From Bacteroidia bacterium (GTDB taxonomy: Bacteria; Bacteroidota; Bacteroidia; B-17B0; Aurantibacillaceae): a stretch of 64,000 bases of DNA. The stretch covers positions 1 through 64,000 of the forward strand of contig JAEUTQ010000036.1 in NCBI GenBank assembly GCA_016787445.1, given 5' to 3'. The notes below the pieces were generated by a model that did not search any database, was not told the DNA's origin, and saw only the letters and a list, made by a program, of their open reading frames with translations. Position 1 is the stretch's first letter, and each line of letters starts with the position of its first letter. Position numbers and translations under genes: made by a program. Of this stretch, positions 13,430 through 58,585 are shown piece after piece.

Positions 13430-13863
13430 ATGTCAGGTCGAGCGGAGTCGAGACCGCTTAGTAATTAGTAAAAAATGAGATATGGCTAAATTTAAAATTC
13501 TTTATGTGTATATACTTTCCTGCGCAGATAGAACATATTATACAGGCGTAACAAATGATTTGGAAAGGCGACTGCTACAACATAAACTGGGTGTTAATAA
13601 GATGGCATATACTTTTACTCGCCGCCCGGTTGAATTAGTCTACTACGAATCATTCAATAATTACCTTTTGGCTATAGAATGGGAATCTAGGATAAAGAAA
13701 TGGAGTAATAAGAAGAAAAGGGCATTGGTAGAATCGGATTGGAATAAACTAAAGGAAGCGTCTGAATGTAAAAATGCTACTTCTCATAAATTTCACTCTA
13801 AGTTCAAATTAAATAAAAATAATTAGATTTGTATTTAGGTCTCGACTACGCTCGACCTGACAT
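13430..13863. mobile_element. Candidate mobile element: GIY-YIG gene between 26-base inverted repeats
   Basis: The left arm 13430-13455 (ATGTCAGGTCGAGCGGAGTC then GAGACC) and the right arm 13838-13863, read on the opposite strand, differ at one of 26 positions (GCGGAG versus GCGTAG). Between them is only the GIY-YIG ORF. Related single motifs lie at 13276, 13333, 54662 (interrupted), 54784, 58374 and 58452. The arms are themselves semi-palindromic (TCGA...TCGA). No direct repeat flanking the unit is obvious. Mobility is inference. Confidence 0.4.
13482..13826 (+). CDS. Solitary GIY-YIG endonuclease-domain protein
   Basis: 114 residues, a stand-alone GIY-YIG nuclease fold. The motif strands are VYILSC (GIY position) and YYTGVT (YIG position), followed by the catalytic Arg in NDLERRLLQHK, and the catalytic Glu in AIEWESRIKKW. 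The C-terminus after residue 95 (ASECKNATSHKFHSK) is low-quality tail. This small family (COG2827 type) occurs in several copies in many Bacteroidota, and its cellular target is unknown. The gene lies alone between the two arms of a 26-base inverted repeat, and a second family member at 55156 lies in a duplicated tRNA gene. A role in repeat or element movement is a hypothesis. Confidence 0.9.
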   Translation: MAKFKILYVYILSCADRTYYTGVTNDLERRLLQHKLGVNKMAYTFTRRPVELVYYESFNNYLLAIEWESRIKKWSNKKKRALVESDWNKLKEASECKNATSHKFHSKFKLNKNN

Positions 13864-51878: not shown

Positions 51879-54524
51879 ATGGCAATAGCAGGCGACAAAG
51901 AAACCCCCCTCATGAAACAATATAACAGCATCAAGGTGAAATACCCGGATGCAATACTGTTATTCAGAGTGGGTGATTTTTATGAAACATTTGGAGAAGA
52001 TGCCGTTAAAACAGCAAAGGTTTTAGGTATAGTATTAACGAAGCGGGCCAATGGTTCAGCGTCGCATATTGAGTTAGCCGGATTTCCGCATCACTCACTC
52101 GATTCTTATTTGCCCAAGTTAGTAAGAGCAGGTTATCGCGTGGCCATTTGTGATCAGCTTGAAGATCCCAAAATGACTAAAACCATTGTGAAGCGTGGCA
52201 TCACCGAATTAGTTACGCCCGGTGTCAGCTTCAATGATAAAGTTTTAGATCATCAAAAAAATAATTTCTTAGCCAGTATACATTTAGACAAAGACAAAGC
52301 CGGGGTTTCTTTCCTTGATATCAGTACCGGTGAATTTTTAGTCGGACAAGGCAGCACGACCTATGTAGAAAGATTGATTCAGAACTTTAAGCCTAATGAG
52401 ATTTTATTTGAGAAAAATAAGAGAAACGATTTACAAGAATTAATCGGCGACCGCTTTTATATTTTCGGATTAGATGATTGGGCTTTTACCTACGATTACG
52501 GTTATGAAAGTTTAATTAAGCAGTTTGAAACAACATCTTTAAAGGGATTTGGAATTGAAGATTACAGTCTGGCGATTGTGAGTTGTGGAGCTTTACTTCA
52601 TTACTTAAACGAAACCAAACACGACAAATTAAAGCACATTACTAAAGTTAGTCGACTTGATGAAGAGCAATATGTGTGGTTGGATAAATTCACCATTCGC
52701 AACCTCGAATTATTCGCTTCCAATAACGAGAACGGAAAAAGTTTAATCGATGTGATTGATAAAACAGTCACGCCAATGGGTTCTCGCTTATTAAAACGAT
52801 GGCTAGCTTTACCGTTAAAATCGGTGGAGCAAATAAATGAGCGACATGAAGCCGTTAATTATTTTGTGCAGCACAATGAGCTGCGATTAAAAATCAATTT
52901 ATTATTAAAGGAAGTAGGCGATTTAGAGCGATTGATTTCTAAAGTAGCAGCAGCACGTGTTAATCCGCGCGAGTTAGTTCAGTTAAAGCGATCACTCAAT
53001 ATCATTGAGCAATTGAAACTGGAGATGAGTGTGGTGGAGCCGGCCTCGCTTAAAAAAATCGCCGATCAGTTAAACGCTTGCGCTTTAATAAAGGATAAGC
53101 TAGAAAGAGAAATAAATGAAGAAGCACCGGTAAATATTTTAAAAGGCGATGTGATTAAAGCCGGTGTAAACGCAGAACTTGATGAGTTAAGAAGTATCGC
53201 TTATTCGGGAAAAGATTATTTAATACAAATACAGCAAAGAGAAAGTGCCAATACCGGAATTCCGAGTTTGAAAATCTCTTACAACAATGTGTTTGGTTAT
53301 TATTTAGAAGTAACCAATGCGCATAAAGATAAAGTGCCTCAGGAGTGGATACGCAAACAAACTTTAACCAATGCGGAGCGTTACATTACTCCTGAGTTAA
53401 AAAATTACGAGGAGAAAATATTAGGTGCAGAAGAAAAAATCACAGCCCTAGAACAACAATTATTTGAAGCGGTGATTCGCGATGTATCGGATTACATTGT
53501 GCCTATTCAATTAAACGCCGGACTCGTAGCCAGATTAGACGTGTTAAGTTCATTTGCGGCTTTAGCACTTGAAAATAATTATGTGATGCCGCAAGTTAAC
53601 GAGGGTTATGCCATAAAAATTACGGAAGGGCGCCATCCTGTCATTGAAAAACAATTGCCGGTAGACAAAGAATATGTAAGCAATTCGGTTTATCTGGATA
53701 ATGATGAGCAGCAAGTGATGATGATAACCGGTCCGAATATGAGTGGTAAATCAGCCTTGTTACGACAAACGGCACTCATTGTTTTATTAGCACAAATTGG
53801 TGCTTTTGTTCCGGCTGAAGCTGCTGAGTTAGGCATCATCGATAAAATTTTTACACGTGTTGGAGCCACCGATAATATTTCATCCGGCGAATCCACCTTC
53901 ATGGTAGAGATGAATGAAACGGCCAGCATCTTAAATAATATTACGGCGCGGAGTTTAGTATTGTTGGATGAAATTGGAAGAGGAACATCAACCTATGATG
54001 GAATTTCCATCGCATGGGCTATTGCGGAGTATTTGCACAATCAGCCGTCGAATAGAGCTAAAACCTTATTCGCCACGCATTATCATGAATTGAATGAAAT
54101 GACAAATTATTTCCCGCGCATTAAAAACTTTAATGTAAGCGTGAAAGAAATTAATAATAAAATTATTTTCCTGCGTAAGTTAGCAGAGGGAGGAAGCGAG
54201 CATAGTTTTGGTATACATGTTGCACGCATGGCCGGCATGCCGAAAGTGGTGATAGAAAGAGCCAATCAGGTATTGAAACAATTGGAGAAGGAACACGAAA
54301 TGGAATTAGTGCCATTGGATGGAGAGACGGAAGATATGCAGGTGAAAAGTAACGGTCGCAAAAAAGTAATGCCGGATGATGAAATGCAATTGAGCTTTTT
54401 CAAGTTAGATGATCCTGTTTTGGAGCAAATAAAAGCAGATATTTTAAAAACGGATATCAATACCTTAACACCGGTAGAGGCCCTGTTGAAGTTAAATGAG
54501 ATAAAGAAGTTAGTTGGGGGATGA
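51879..54524 (+). CDS. mutS: DNA mismatch repair protein MutS
   Basis: 881 residues, full length. The mismatch-binding domain has the Phe-x-Glu motif in [20 protein letters not shown], domain III/clamp follows, and the ATPase has Walker [59 protein letters not shown] (Walker B) and [20 protein letters not shown]. The C-terminal tail has the extra helix region ending [13 protein letters not shown]. No mutL nearby. It is followed directly by a repeat field. Confidence 0.96.
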
Positions 54525-54886
54525 TGATTAATGTTTGATGTTTAGTGTTTGATGTTTATAATACGTCATTGCGAGGAACGAAGCAATCTTTAACTCACCC
54601 CTTGCCCCTCTCGATGAATAGAGAAGGGGAAGAATAAATCAAATCTTAAATATTCGATTGTTGTCATGTCGAGTTTATTCTTCGTATAACATTGAAGGTG
54701 GGCGTAGTCGAGACATCTTTTACAAGTAACAGATTCCTCCCTCCTCCCGATAGCTATCGGGACGGAATGACGAATACACAGAATGTCATGTCGAGCGAAG
54801 TTGAGACATCTTTTCAAACTCACACCAACTCTCAACAGGGAAAGTGGGGGAAGAATTCGTACCTCATTTACTTCATTATATAAATT
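54525..54886. repeat. Repeat field downstream of mutS
   Basis: No gene. In order: a TGTTTGATGTTTAGTGTTTG-type AT repeat (from about 54530); GTCATTGCGAGGAACGAAGC (54567-54586; also at 58301-58320); a CTCACCCC/CCCTCTC copy (54593-54628); a TGTCATGTCGAG...CGTAGTCGAGACAT copy split by 29 bases (54662-54716); CAGATTCCTCCC...GGAATGACGAATACACAG with an inserted CCCGATAGCTATCGGG (54730-54784); and another TGTCATGTCGAG copy (54784-54809). Short frames here are by-products of the repeats. Confidence 0.8.
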
Positions 54887-54916
54887 AAAAAAGCGGACCA
54901 AATGATCCGCTTTTTT
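54887..54916. terminator. Bidirectional terminator hairpin next to tRNA-Leu remnant
   Basis: AAAAAAGCGGA (54887-54897) pairs perfectly with TCCGCTTTTTT (54906-54916) over an 8-base loop. On the minus strand it comes right after the 18-base tRNA-Leu remnant, the place where a tRNA terminator would be. Confidence 0.85.
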
Positions 54917-54917
54917 G

Positions 54918-54935
54918 TACCTCCGGCGGGACTTG
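54918..54935 (-). pseudogene. tRNA-Leu 3'-end remnant (18 bases)
   Basis: TACCTCCGGCGGGACTTG is identical to the 3' acceptor/T-arm end of the intact tRNA-Leu at 55444-55528. After it the sequence diverges into a small hairpin (GACTTGCCGCTGGCGAGTC). It shows a third partial copy of this tRNA end in 600 bases. Confidence 0.7.
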
Positions 54936-55092
54936 CCGCTGGCGAGTCACTTGTCGTAATGTTGAAAATGAGAAAGTAAATACCCTCCGGGTATTTCATT
55001 TTTTGTTTTTCGGTTTTCATTCAAGCAAGCTTGACTCAACCCGTAAAACAAAAAAAGGATAGAACGAAGTTCTATCCTTTCTCATTTATCCG
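54936..55092. repeat. Hairpin-rich spacer between tRNA-Leu fragments
   Basis: No gene. Holds AAATACCC/GGGTATTT (54978-54985 / 54989-54996, 3-base loop), a CAAGCTTG palindrome near 55027-55034, and the terminator AAAGGATAGAAC (55054-55065) pairing perfectly with 55069-55080 over a GAA loop, which follows the truncated tRNA-Leu copy on the minus strand. Confidence 0.7.
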
Positions 55093-55166
55093 TACCTCCG
55101 GCGGGACTTGAACCCGCACGACTGTTGAGGTCACCCCGATAAAATCGGGGCGTGTCTACCAATTTC
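55093..55166 (-). pseudogene. Truncated tRNA-Leu copy with exchanged anticodon arm
   Basis: On the minus strand this matches tRNA-Leu(TAA) from the D-loop (AATTGGTAGACACG) to the 3' end, but has no 5' acceptor strand (the upstream bases are TTAATTAAT). The 17-base anticodon arm is replaced by CCCCGATTTTATCGGGG, a perfect 5-base stem with 7-base loop that would give anticodon TTT. The T-arm and variable arm are identical to the intact gene. It cannot fold an acceptor stem, so it should be inactive. The GIY-YIG gene at 55156 ends inside it: its TAG stop is the TAG of GGTAGACACG. Confidence 0.85.
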
Positions 55167-55407
55167 CATTAATTAAACTTTCAATATATTTTCTGCTTTT
55201 CATCCTTTTTATTCTGCTCTCTTCTTGAATCGCTTCGATTTCAGATGAAAATAGTTTTTTTGATTTTATGACATAGGGAATCCCACCTTTTGTAGCTTTA
55301 ACGGCACCTTTATTATGTCTCTCCTCTAATCTCTTTTCAGGATTTTCAGAATATCCAACATAGTACCTGTTTACTTTTTCGGAATATAGAATATATACAT
55401 AAAACAT
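55156..55407 (-). CDS. Solitary GIY-YIG endonuclease-domain protein inside duplicated tRNA-Leu
   Basis: 83 residues, a minimal GIY-YIG domain: FYVYILYSEKVNRYYVGYSE (VYIL and YVG strands), catalytic Arg in NPEKRLEERHNKG, catalytic Glu in AIQEESRIKRMKSRKYIES. The final codons (SLINGNW and stop) are made of tRNA-Leu sequence: the TAG is in the D-loop of the truncated copy. On the minus strand the order is intact tRNA-Leu, its terminator, this gene, then the 3' tRNA fragment. That is the order left when an element inserts into a tRNA gene and rebuilds it. It resembles the other solitary GIY-YIG at 13482 only in the family core. No integrase is present; mobility is inference. Confidence 0.88.
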   Translation of the reverse strand: MFYVYILYSEKVNRYYVGYSENPEKRLEERHNKGAVKATKGGIPYVIKSKKLFSSEIEAIQEESRIKRMKSRKYIESLINGNW

Positions 55408-55416
55408 TTAAACGAA

Positions 55417-55442
55417 AAAGCCCCGAATCAAATCGGGGCTTT
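55417..55442 (-). terminator. Terminator of tRNA-Leu(TAA)
   Basis: On the minus strand AAAGCCCCGA pairs with TCGGGGCTTT over a 6-base loop and is followed by TTTCG. Directly after the tRNA 3' end. Its stem CCCCGA...TCGGGG is nearly the same as the anticodon arm in the truncated tRNA copy. Confidence 0.85.
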
Positions 55443-55443
55443 G

Positions 55444-55528
55444 TACCTCCGGCGGGACTTGAACCCGCACGACTGTTGAGGTCACAGGATTTTAAGTCCT
55501 GCGTGTCTACCAATTCCACCACAGAGGC
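55444..55528 (-). tRNA. tRNA-Leu (anticodon TAA)
   Basis: 85 bases. Acceptor GCCTCTG pairs with CGGAGGT (two G-U), anticodon stem CAGGA/TCCTG with loop CTTAAAA (anticodon TAA), long variable arm as in class II tRNAs, T-arm GCGGG TTCAAGT CCCGC, discriminator A. CCA is not encoded. Confidence 0.96.
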
Positions 55529-55540
55529 ATCCTGGTGTTA

Positions 55541-55564
55541 AAAAAGCCCTTTTGGGGGCTTTTT
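55541..55564 (-). terminator. Terminator between tRNA-Gly and tRNA-Leu
   Basis: AAAAAGCCC (55541-55549) pairs with GGGCTTTTT (55556-55564) over a 6-base loop; on the minus strand it follows tRNA-Gly by two bases. Confidence 0.75.
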
Positions 55565-55566
55565 CG

Positions 55567-55639
55567 AGCGGAAAACGGGTCTCGAACCCGCGACCTTAAC
55601 CTTGGCAAGGTTACGCTCTACCAACTGAGCTATTTCCGC
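55567..55639 (-). tRNA. tRNA-Gly (anticodon GCC)
   Basis: 73 bases. Acceptor GCGGAAA/TTTCCGC, D-arm AGCTCAGTTGGTAGAGC, anticodon stem-loop AACCT TGCCAAG GTT-type with GCC, T-arm CGGG TTCGAGA CCCG, discriminator T. CCA not encoded. First of the tRNA pair on the minus strand. Confidence 0.96.
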
Positions 55640-55849
55640 TTAATTTTCACTCTCAATATAAAAAGTGAGTATTTCAAATCCTCTTAATGAGGTCCCATCG
55701 TTTTGGGGCAGCAAATGTAATAGTTTTTTTAAAAAATCTCAAAAAAATGGGCTTATTTTTTGGTTTTTATGGCAATTATCTGATTAGCTGACTGTAACCG
55801 CCGAATACGACTTATACTATACCTCATCGTAACGAAGAATCCATTAAAA

Positions 55850-57442
55850 TCACCGGCTCACCACCACCTTCGAGAACTGAAGGGTGGAATTCGAATCTGA
55901 AAGTTTAAAGAAATAAGTACCGATGGCCAAAGTGCTAATGTCAATTTTATTCTGACCGGCTACCAACTTTTCTTCACTTAATTTTTCTCCCAGTATATTA
56001 TAGATTTCCAGTTTTAGTGTGTTATCAGAAACAACAGTGACAAACTCTGATGCGGGATTAGGATAAATAGAAATAGTTTCGGTACCTACATTTTCCAATT
56101 CATGAATTGCTGTTGGTGAATTACTGCACATGGAAGATTGTCTCCAGATATCGCGTTGAAACATGAGCCAGTCAGGGCCATTACCTTTTGCTACGGAAAC
56201 CATGTAAGCGCGACCGAAATTTCCGGAAGTGTTGGGATAAATCCCATAACCACCCACAATAAAAACATCTAATGTATCATCGCCGTCGAAATCGGAAATC
56301 ACCGGCGCGTGACTTAATGAATATTGTGAATTACCATAATGCGCCGCCAGATCAATGCTCCACTGTAAACTTCCGTTGTTGCCGTTTAAGGCCATCAATT
56401 GTCCTTTACTCGAACCAAAAACCACATCCAGATAAACATCCTTATTCATATCAGCTAAAGCCACCCCTCTGAATGCTTGTCCGAAATTAGGAATGGTGTA
56501 ATTCCATTTTAAAGCGCCGCTATTGCTAAGTGCCGTAACCTGCGAACCGTTAGTAAATACCACATCGCAATTACCGTCGTTGTCAATGTCACCAATTGCC
56601 GCCGGAGAGCCAACGTAACCCGAGCCACAATATTTCCAGGCAGTTGTACCGTTTTCGCCATTGATGCAGTAGAGCGTGTCGTTATAAGAGCCGATGAGTA
56701 ATTCGGGTTTACCGTCGTTATCCATATCCGCCACAGCCGTACCATGATAAATATGATCGTGAACCGGATAAGCCCACAAACGTGTTTGATTGTTTCCGCG
56801 GAAAGCGAAGATGCTATCCTTATAATTAAAATTCCAGGTGGCCACTACAAAATCTAATTGTCCGTTGTTATCCAAATCCACAATCGTTGGCGCGGTTTGA
56901 ATCCAGGAATTACCATCCACTTTAATTTCCCAGGCTTGCGAACCATCTTCTGCATTCAGACATAAAACATAACCGCCAAATTCGCCGTGTAACACTTCCG
57001 GTTTCCCATCATTATCTACATCAGCAATGGTAGGAGGTGAATCACTGCCCTTGGTATTCGCTACCCATTTTACGGTGCCGTTCGGACCATTAAAACAAAA
57101 CGTTTTGGGATTGCAGGATGCAGGGACAATAACCTCTTCCGATCCGATATTATCAACGTTGTAAATAATCGGCGCCACATCATTACAGCCATGGGTTCCC
57201 ACTGCACTGGCATTGTATTTCCAAAGCAGCGTTCCGTTTTCCGAATTAAGCGCATAGATGGATGAATCGTTACGATAGCAACCAAAAACCAATTCTTTTT
57301 TTCCATCGCCATCAATATCCTTCGCTGCGGTTTGTCCCGCCGAGAAGTCCTTGGTATTGTACCACCATTTTATTTTTGGTGTTTGTGAAAAAGCTGAACT
57401 GCAGGCAAGCAACAAAAAGAAAAAAATTGACTTTGCTTTCAT
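55850..57442 (-). CDS. Secreted FG-GAP/VCBS repeat protein with T9SS type A sorting domain
   Basis: 530 residues from the ATG at 57442, which opens the signal peptide KAKSIFFFLLLACSSAFSQ; the frame continues to 57490 without a signal, so the later start is better. Seven calcium-loop repeats of the FG-GAP/VCBS type are visible (DIDGDGKKELVFG, DVDNDGKPEVLHG, DLDNNGQLDFVVA, DMDNDGKPELLIG, DIDNDGNCDVVFT, DMNKDVYLDVVFG, DFDGDDTLDVFIV), interleaved with PQQ-like LNGNNGSLQW units: a seven-bladed propeller. The C-terminal 80 residues from ISIYPNPASEFVTVVSDNTL to LQFSKVVVSR are a type A sorting domain. A surface protein of unknown ligand, flanked by tRNA genes and a repeat field. Confidence 0.9.
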   Translation of the reverse strand: MKAKSIFFFLLLACSSAFSQTPKIKWWYNTKDFSAGQTAAKDIDGDGKKELVFGCYRNDSSIYALNSENGTLLWKYNASAVGTHGCNDVAPIIYNVDNIGSEEVIVPASCNPKTFCFNGPNGTVKWVANTKGSDSPPTIADVDNDGKPEVLHGEFGGYVLCLNAEDGSQAWEIKVDGNSWIQTAPTIVDLDNNGQLDFVVATWNFNYKDSIFAFRGNNQTRLWAYPVHDHIYHGTAVADMDNDGKPELLIGSYNDTLYCINGENGTTAWKYCGSGYVGSPAAIGDIDNDGNCDVVFTNGSQVTALSNSGALKWNYTIPNFGQAFRGVALADMNKDVYLDVVFGSSKGQLMALNGNNGSLQWSIDLAAHYGNSQYSLSHAPVISDFDGDDTLDVFIVGGYGIYPNTSGNFGRAYMVSVAKGNGPDWLMFQRDIWRQSSMCSNSPTAIHELENVGTETISIYPNPASEFVTVVSDNTLKLEIYNILGEKLSEEKLVAGQNKIDISTLAIGTYFFKLSDSNSTLQFSKVVVSR

Positions 57443-57485
57443 GGGGATGGATTTTGTATAATCAAATATAGTAAAATTGGGATAA

Positions 57486-58030
57486 CTCACCCCGGCCCTC
57501 TCTATGAATAGAGAGGGGGAAGTACAGGAACCCTTTTACGAAAAGTGGCAAATAATCAGAAACAGAATGCTCATTTTAACCAAATCAAAATTTAGAGATT
57601 ATTCAATAAGTGTTATGTGTTTAATGTTTAACATATAACAAGAAATAAGAAATGACCAACAAATCCCCTGCATTTCTGCGCCTCCACCTGCACTGCGTTT
57701 GTTGGATAAATCCGCGTGAAACAAATAAGACTCACCCTGGCCCCTGTCTGCCTTAGGTACGACAGGCAAGCTCTCTATGAATAGAGAGAGGGAAGTGCAG
57801 GAACCGCTCTGCGAAAATCCGCGTAATCCGCGGGAAAAATAAATAATGATCAGTAAAGAGCCCGCACTGCGTCTTTGCGCCTCCGCGTGAAACAAATAAA
57901 ACTCACCCCCAGCCCCTCTCTACAAGTAGAGAAGGGGGAAGTGCAGAAACCGCTCAGCGTCTTTGCGCCTCCGCGTGAAACCCATCTGCGAAAATCAGCG
58001 GTATCTGCGGGAAACCCAAACATTCAAACC
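57486..58030. repeat. Repeat field A (CTCACCCC, TCTGCGAAAATCCGCG, CTTTGCGCCTCCGCGTG families)
   Basis: No gene. Contains three CTCACCCC/CCCTCTC inverted repeat copies (57486-57521; 57730-57799, split by an inserted CCTGTC...GACAGG hairpin; 57901-57945), the 88-base leader-repeat copy A (57567-57654), CTCTGCGAAAATCCGCGTAA-type copies (57811-57840 and 57986-58015) and CTTTGCGCCTCCGCGTGAAA copies (about 57873 and 57961). Frames across this area are repeat by-products. Confidence 0.8.
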
Positions 58031-58290
58031 CGGGTGAAACCGCTCCAATTTCCCTACTCAAACGTGAGTAAATTTTTTAAAAGATGTTGTAACATCTTTA
58101 GCTTGCTGACTCAAATTCCGAGGGGAAAAAGCCGCCCTGACTTATTAACAACACGCTTCTATTAACTCGGGTTGTGGTCGGTGGAATTGCGCATTAAGAA
58201 ATAGTATTTTCAGGCTGCCTATGAATCACTCAGAATGTTACCCTTTTGTGACTGAGAACGGCGGAGCCATGAAAAGTAGGGAGAGTAAGT
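58031..58290. other. Unexplained structured segment between repeat fields
   Basis: About 260 bases with no convincing frame and none of the neighbouring repeat motifs. Hairpins: TACTCA 58055-58060 / TGAGTA 58065-58070 with AACG loop and T-run; AAAGATGTT 58080-58088 / AACATCTTT 58091-58099. A further region CAAATTCCGA...TCGGTGGAATTG and GGCTGCC...GGCGGAGCC can pair over longer range. It may be a small RNA gene or a degraded element; no match to RNase P, SRP, tmRNA or 6S consensus seen. Confidence 0.4.
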
Positions 58291-58297
58291 TAGGAGT

Positions 58298-58521
58298 TCG
58301 TCATTGCGAGGAACGAAGCAATCTTATTTATTAACAGATTCCTCCCGATGGTCGGAATGACGAATACACAGAATGTCATGTCGAGCGTAGTCGAGACATT
58401 TTTTTCAAGTAACAGATTCCTCCCGTTGGTCGGAATGACGAATACACAGAATGTCATGTCGAGCGTAGTCGAGACATTTTTTTCAAGTAACAGATTCCTC
58501 CCGATGGTCGGAATGACGAAC
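58298..58521. repeat. 78-base tandem repeat (2.4 units) with GTCATTGCGAGG leader
   Basis: GTCATTGCGAGGAACGAAGC (58301-58320) is followed by units starting AACAGATTCCTCCCG at 58333, 58411 and 58489, spaced exactly 78 bases. Each unit holds CGGAATGACGAATACACAG, TGTCATGTCGAGCGTAGTCG and a T-run. The third unit stops after GGAATGACGAA (58521). A diverged single copy is at 54726-54820. Units differ at single positions (CCCGATGG versus CCCGTTGG). Confidence 0.88.
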
Positions 58522-58525
58522 AAAA

Positions 58526-58585
58526 AAAATTATTCAATAAGTGTTATGTGTTTAATGTTTAACACTTAACAAGAAATAAAAAATG
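58526..58585 (+). repeat. Leader repeat copy B ending at the DUF2061 start codon
   Basis: TTATTCAATAAGTGTTATGT then GTTTAATGTTTAACACTTAACAAG-type sequence, ending AAATAAAAAATG. The last ATG is the start codon of the DUF2061 gene. It is the 3' 60 bases of the 88-base unit seen in full at 57567-57654 and 59133-59220. Confidence 0.8.

Follow-up and report, generated by a model that had tools for sequence, protein, structure and literature searches.

A small GIY-YIG nuclease gene in the window (the whole stretch of 64,000 nt analysed, from the Bacteroidia genome G000) lies between an intact tRNA-Leu gene and the old downstream flank of that gene, with a broken, palindrome-interrupted copy of the tRNA as its far border. 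Many different tRNA genes of Bacteroidota and of several other phyla show the same arrangement, and the unit occurs at many tRNA isotypes in empty, full, GIY-less and tandemly amplified states. This recurrence suggests a minimal mobile element of a type that is widespread and has apparently not been described. The probable explanation, in our opinion, is a tRNA-specific, minimal selfish element resembling homing endonucleases, which consists of one small GIY-YIG gene plus a piece of the targeted tRNA and rebuilds the tRNA that it enters.

Organization of the tRNA-Leu locus

The features of the locus are as follows (evidence in brackets).

55566–55639, minus strand: tRNA-Gly (GCC), upstream partner of tRNA-Leu (ARAGORN; conserved order mutS, tRNA-Gly, tRNA-Leu)
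55443–55528, minus strand: intact tRNA-Leu, anticodon TAA (ARAGORN; Rfam RF00005, 58.9 bits)
About 55413–55442, minus strand: terminator hairpin AAAGCCCCGATTTGATTCGGGGCTTTTTCG between tRNA-Leu and the nuclease gene (inverted repeat read directly)
55156–55407, minus strand: GIY-YIG nuclease ORF of 83 aa, a bare catalytic domain (Pfam PF01541)
55092–55164, minus strand: displaced tRNA-Leu copy, tRNA positions 14–28 and 44–86 (100% identity to the intact gene)
55134–55150, no strand assigned: palindrome CCCCGATTTTATCGGGG in place of the anticodon arm of the displaced copy (sequence)
55000–55091, minus strand: old downstream flank of tRNA-Leu, including a terminator at about 55050–55077 (comparison with the related genomes G012 and G007)
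54914–54935, minus strand: third tRNA-Leu 3' fragment, with 19 nt of the tRNA 3' end (sequence)
54887–54916, minus strand: terminator of the third tRNA-Leu fragment (sequence)

The order of tRNA-Leu, terminator, GIY-YIG gene and tRNA part agrees with the preliminary description of this DNA, except that the supposed 3' part spans positions 14–86 and is thus nearly a whole tRNA. The displaced copy consists of two pieces, each 100% identical to the intact gene: tRNA positions 44–86 (43 nt, 55092–55134) and 14–28 (15 nt, 55150–55164). Since these exact repeats of 43 and 15 nt lie in register, they are not due to chance. The copy is not a functional tRNA, scoring 17 bits with the covariance model. 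The ATG of the nuclease ORF is located 35 nt past the 3' end of tRNA-Leu, and its stop codon TAG (55156–55158) is formed by positions 20–22, in the D loop of the displaced copy, so that gene and tRNA fragment are joined exactly, as had been described. The third fragment and its terminator (54887–54935) had been missed; each tRNA-Leu piece of the locus is followed by a terminator of its own.

The preliminary description had reported no recombinase, and we likewise saw no recombinase-like ORF in the 10 kb around the element, the unit of which is the GIY-YIG ORF alone. A group I intron carrying a homing endonuclease was ruled out, as tRNA-Leu is intact and uninterrupted and no intron family was matched at 54000–56500. 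Elsewhere in the window, at 58290–58569, tandem VIPTIGRNLLLEKNVSTTLDMTFCV repeats give rise to spurious ORFs on both strands.

Empty and occupied sites in related genomes

It had been proposed that the locus results from integration into a tRNA gene, and that relatives should be searched for an empty tRNA-Leu site. Such a site was found at the syntenic locus of G012, a genome of another genus in the same family, in which the order mutS, tRNA-Gly, tRNA-Leu runs straight into the flank found in the window on the far side of the displaced copy. The two flanks align 16 SD above shuffles, and this flank was absent behind tRNA-Leu in 10 other relatives (at most 4 SD above shuffles). In the sister genome G007, the tRNA-Gly/tRNA-Leu pair is identical to that of the window (198/198 nt); the slot after tRNA-Leu has no GIY-YIG gene and holds a Fic gene (L069 3119–4240, G007:C3), followed by the same outer flank, which begins with a vestige of a tRNA end (GGAGGTAC). 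By flank comparison, the slot between tRNA-Leu and its old flank is therefore empty in G012, occupied by Fic in G007 and by GIY-YIG in G000.

A degenerate counterpart of the third, 19-nt fragment was read by eye from the alignment of the nuclease-less G012 (L041), which suggests that this debris is probably older than the nuclease insertion. The segment with tRNA-Gly, tRNA-Leu and the slot (window 51879–57490) is inverted between mutS and an FG-GAP-type gene relative to L069 (G007) and L041 (G012); given the order mutS, tRNA-Gly, tRNA-Leu in G012 and G007, the inversion occurred in G000 and independently of the cargo.

Integration beside or into tRNA genes was borne out at further loci. At tRNA-His, the site is filled in G007 by an insert bounded by a 34-nt direct repeat (tRNA positions 55–75 plus 13 nt of flank), is empty in G000 with the same outer flank as in G007, and is empty also in G001–G004 and G006. 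At tRNA-Arg(ACG), an empty site (G000), a GIY-less relic of roughly 60 nt (G007) and full elements (G002 and G006) were found. At the initiator tRNA-Met, a full element is present in G007, G006 and G003, the site is empty in G005, in G001 and at one G004 locus, and GIY-less fragments follow in tandem in G000 and at a second G004 locus. Alleles with and without the element at one site, a mark of homing endonucleases, are thus present at tRNA-His, tRNA-Arg and, with G012, tRNA-Leu.

Tandem arrays were found in two single-contig genomes, with 5 units of 365 nt at tRNA-Met (G226) and 5 of 450 nt at tRNA-Leu (G292); in G109 eight GIY ORFs form a tandem array, and G007 has three GIY-less units of 97 nt at tRNA-Arg. 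Assembly artefact or chance duplication deserves next to no weight: several of the genomes are draft MAGs, but the elements are present in G226 and G292 and in the six-contig G007, they occur in several phyla, and their ORFs are under selection. The GIY-less tandem units, which consist of a tRNA 3' piece, a palindrome or spacer and a terminator, lie directly behind tRNA-Met or tRNA-Arg (L153/L161 in G000:C78, L160 in G004:C113 and L276 in G007:C1) and are possible non-autonomous derivatives. The terminator loop behind the initiator tRNA-Met is inverted between two sister genomes (catcggTTACTccgatg versus catcggAGTAAccgatg; L152, L153).

Recurrence at other tRNA genes

The search for further GIY-YIG genes adjacent to tRNAs, also suggested earlier, yielded large numbers. 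G000 has 31 tRNA genes in 3.77 Mb, and the chance that a random gene starts within 60 nt after a same-strand tRNA is about 2.5e-4; 3 of its 5 small GIY-YIG genes start 35–36 nt past a same-strand tRNA (Met, Val and Leu), for which the probability is about 1.5e-10. Among the small GIY-YIG ORFs sampled in eight congeneric genomes, 23/47 are tRNA-linked, none of them on the opposite strand; for ORFs of 94 aa or less the fraction is 19/23. A profile built from 11 tRNA-linked proteins matched 153 of 247 Bacteroidota genomes at 1e-12. Of the loci fetched for the best matches across the phylum, 26/30 abut a tRNA, and in a scan of named genomes 33/79 scored loci are tRNA-linked, including loci of Ignavibacteria, Nitrospirota, Planctomycetota and Patescibacteria; both samples were picked by similarity to tRNA-linked proteins, and these fractions are not population estimates. 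Altogether, the elements are associated with more than 20 anticodons in Bacteroidota, Nitrospirota, Planctomycetota and Patescibacteria.

Two arrangements were distinguished, with tRNA and GIY-YIG gene co-directional in every case. In mode A (62 cases), an intact tRNA is followed by a gap (median about 40 nt), the ORF and a displaced tRNA 3' part. In mode B (24 cases), a displaced tRNA 5' part precedes the ORF and the intact tRNA. Ten of the mode B cases have an overlap of ORF and tRNA of exactly 9 nt, the stop codon being the conserved T8A9G10 of the tRNA; they stem from Bacteroidota, Nitrospirota and Patescibacteria and involve Arg, Ala, Gly and Phe tRNAs. Simple tandem duplication by chance was ruled out, given how often the arrangement recurs, its bias in orientation and the isotype signal in the phylogeny (see below).

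The constant orientation would also suit a tRNA-linked housekeeping nuclease that acts on the RNA or DNA of its tRNA locus (in processing, quality control or repair), the duplication being incidental, and so would the purifying selection on the gene and its relation to SLX1 and UPF0213 described below. We regard this as quite unlikely: presence at the same tRNA is patchy among congeners, the isotypes differ between hosts, and tandem arrays, relics and empty sites are found.

The nuclease and its isotype specificity

The window protein belongs to the GIY-YIG nuclease superfamily (Pfam PF01541, 40.6 bits, 3.2e-10), and with 83 aa it has no room for a domain beyond the catalytic one. Residues Y5, Y16, G18, R26, H31, T39, A59, E63 and K67 are invariant in 11 tRNA-linked relatives. 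The nearest solved structures by profile are those of UPF0213 (1zg2, 1.3e-14; 1ywl, 1.7e-14), followed by SLX1 chains (5e-8 to 8e-6); NCBIfam has no family for the nuclease. A phage origin was set aside, as tblastn against 50,697 phage records gave no relative of the window protein at E 1e-3. The nuclease is under purifying selection, with dN/dS of 0.06–0.16 in related pairs, in several of which dS is near saturation.

Nuclease clades are tied to the tRNA isotype. A tree of 195 GIY-YIG ORFs (few columns and many weak forks), with 83 labelled tips, required 29 isotype changes, compared with 57.7 on average, and never fewer than 51, in 200 shuffles. Within each of the Met, Val, Asn, Arg/Ala, Leu, Gln and Pro groups, the hosts differ in genus, family or phylum. 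This agrees with targeting that is specific for an isotype but switches now and then; a His element, for example, is related to two Arg(TCT) elements.

The association with isotype bears on two further explanations. The first is that the tRNA 3' repeats are scars of trans-acting machinery of the integrase or Y1-transposase type, tRNA ends being general slots and GIY-YIG genes passengers. tRNA 3' ends are classical integrase sites, the slot of G007 contains Fic as cargo, GIY-less units occur in tandem and G000 encodes four Y1_Tnp proteins. However, GIY-YIG is by far the recurrent cargo and its clades follow the isotype, mode B at the tRNA 5' side is not explained by integrase sites at 3' ends, and no recombinase-like ORF was seen beside the window element; we therefore consider this explanation unlikely. 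The second is a toxin-like or defence nuclease (e.g. one cutting invading tRNA genes or tRNA) for which the tRNA locus is a safe and highly transcribed site. The isotype specificity is in keeping with it, as is Fic in the sister slot, the Fic family including toxins. It nevertheless appears very improbable, since no antitoxin-like partner was seen between tRNA and nuclease, and since it leaves the tandem amplification and the exact fusion to the tRNA unexplained.

Possible mechanism of insertion

For the selfish element that we favour, with the nuclease inferred to be the driver of insertion, spread of the homing type is the likeliest course, in the following steps: i) the nuclease would cut the matching tRNA gene in a host free of the element, ii) recombinational repair from an element-bearing copy would bring in the element along with the tRNA part that is lacking, iii) the essential tRNA would thereby be rebuilt and the original tRNA end displaced, and iv) repeated cutting and recombination between tRNA copies would produce tandem arrays and relics. 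In mode A, as at tRNA-Leu, the nuclease might be expressed from transcripts that read through the terminator of the tRNA. In mode B, the gene would lie between the tRNA promoter and the tRNA, with the T8A9G10 of the latter as its stop; the nuclease message would then lose its stop codon to RNase P, and this loss could serve as an inherent brake. SLX1 is a structure-specific endonuclease. With UPF0213 and SLX1 as the nearest structures of the bare domain, recognition of tRNA-gene hairpins by the nuclease is an attractive idea by analogy.

Some observations are at odds with homing. Unlike known homing endonucleases, the bare catalytic domain has no DNA-binding domain by which a single tRNA gene could be located, and the intact tRNA would seem to be still a target. 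The displaced pieces are 100% identical to the host tRNA beside them, for which local duplication is as good an explanation as homing from a close relative. The small nuclease had been proposed as the only agent of integration, and this is plausible; it is complicated by Fic, without GIY-YIG, in the same tRNA-Leu slot of G007 and by the tandem occurrence of GIY-less tRNA-fragment units, which together indicate that, even with no nuclease in cis, such an arrangement can form or be maintained.

Relation to known systems

SegB of the T-even phages is the closest known relative in behaviour and sets a precedent for the proposed mechanism. It is a free-standing GIY-YIG homing endonuclease that cuts inside tRNA genes, and its activity is needed for tandem amplification of the tRNA plus segB unit (PMC13096335, a survey of phage and archaeal-virus proteins only; see also Brok-Volchanskaya et al. 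2008, as cited in PMC10448857). In our own reading, the SegB cleavage motif RAWTSGAAC would correspond to the tRNA T-loop consensus on the other strand. SegB and the elements share the GIY-YIG catalytic domain and a gene location among tRNA genes of many isotypes, and in the amplified SegB unit the nuclease gene is joined at its 3' end to the 5' end of a tRNA, as in mode B. Both the association with many isotypes and the tandem amplification of tRNA plus nuclease were found here, from sequence. In contrast, SegB is phage-borne whereas the present elements are in chromosomes of cellular bacteria, their proteins have 80–95 aa and no extra domain, and every element is joined to a single tRNA and has a displaced copy of it that is interrupted by a palindrome, the clades being isotype-specific.

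UPF0213 and SLX1 resemble the nuclease in structure by profile and in the bare catalytic domain, but the literature consulted gives no account of mobility or tRNA linkage for them. Whether further GIY-YIG members are molecular parasites was left open in PMC1564403.

Islands that integrate into tRNA genes by tyrosine recombinases likewise leave an intact tRNA on one side, a 3' fragment on the other and the old flank beyond. The present elements differ in having no integrase or other recombinase gene within a total of about 350 nt, in their longer (positions 14–86), interrupted displaced copies and in the existence of 5'-side versions. Mitochondrial endonuclease ORFs of the Allomyces atp6 type bring a replacement 3' end of the host gene; such an element rebuilds the interrupted gene and displaces the original end, as here, although the host gene is protein-coding, organellar and of another scale. 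REP/RAYT systems are similar in their short palindromes and in the mini-units around the element, which here are GIY-less, but the enzyme is GIY-YIG and not a Y1 transposase, and none of the four Y1_Tnp (RAYT-like) genes of G000 is adjacent to the window element. These genes, all elsewhere in the genome (C27:5744, C3:92020, C38:50014 and C29:18350), are possible movers of the short palindromes.

In the open-access literature searched, we found no earlier account of GIY-YIG elements resident in chromosomal tRNA genes. If our explanation is true, these would be among the smallest mobile elements known, with one gene of 80–95 codons settling in essential tRNA genes without breaking them; targeting of tRNA genes of the SegB type would extend from phages to the chromosomes of at least four phyla; and many tiny GIY-YIG genes, tRNA fragments and tRNA-linked palindromes in these bacteria would be accounted for. 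Since the clades are isotype-specific, the way in which a bare GIY-YIG domain recognizes its target is open to direct tests.

Palindromes and hairpin repeats

Short palindromes break into the displaced tRNA copies at the D, anticodon, variable and T loops, and the ten tRNA bases that TCCGCC(n)GGCGGA replaces are identical among Met elements of several families. Inverted repeats with a stem of 6 were detected in 45/85 tRNA-linked segments of 80 nt and in 48/1040 control segments, some of them being terminators. The window has 3 TCC..GGA palindromes (stem 6), compared with 1.45 in shuffles. In the whole genome, TCCCGA..TCGGGA occurs 18 times and TCCGCC..GGCGGA 3 times, and with such low counts the palindromes cannot be explained simply as a repeat that abounds in the genome. 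They do exist as dispersed elements, rare genome-wide and located also inside other hairpin repeats, but their density in the displaced tRNA copies is special. They may prevent the displaced copy from acting as a tRNA or break its homology with the intact tRNA, or they may reflect that some machinery prefers hairpin loops.

The other small GIY-YIG gene of the window (ORF 13482–13826, plus strand; region 13432–13862) has no tRNA and lies between inverted, dispersed hairpin repeats (GTCAGGTCGAGCGGAGTCGAGACC). The earlier remark that the tRNA-Leu nuclease is the second GIY-YIG gene of the window to be bounded by repeats is supported by the inverted GTCAGGTCGAGC repeats on both sides of this gene. 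Among non-tRNA small GIY-YIG genes of relatives, 28/47 share direct or inverted 13-mers between their flanks, compared with at most 6/222 control pairs. A broader and more doubtful proposal, which we offer only tentatively, is that bare GIY-YIG domains form a class of "hairpin-resident" mobile nucleases reading structured DNA and not a linear sequence, with one branch at tRNA genes, which it would regenerate, and the other at dispersed hairpin repeats, both inserting and amplifying by cutting hairpin loops. Such cutting would account for the palindromes at the D, anticodon, variable and T loops.

Copies of TCCCGA(n)TCGGGA are often found in the loops of other hairpin repeats, and a perfect 18-bp palindrome, TCCCGATAGCTATCGGGA, lies within another hairpin repeat at 54745–54762 of the window. 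In G007, a compound palindrome of ~39 nt (TCGCGAGG..CTCGCGATGGCGAGT..ACCTCGCCA) interrupts the D or the T loop of the displaced copies belonging to four tRNA loci (L140, L152, L264 and L276), with about a dozen dispersed copies.
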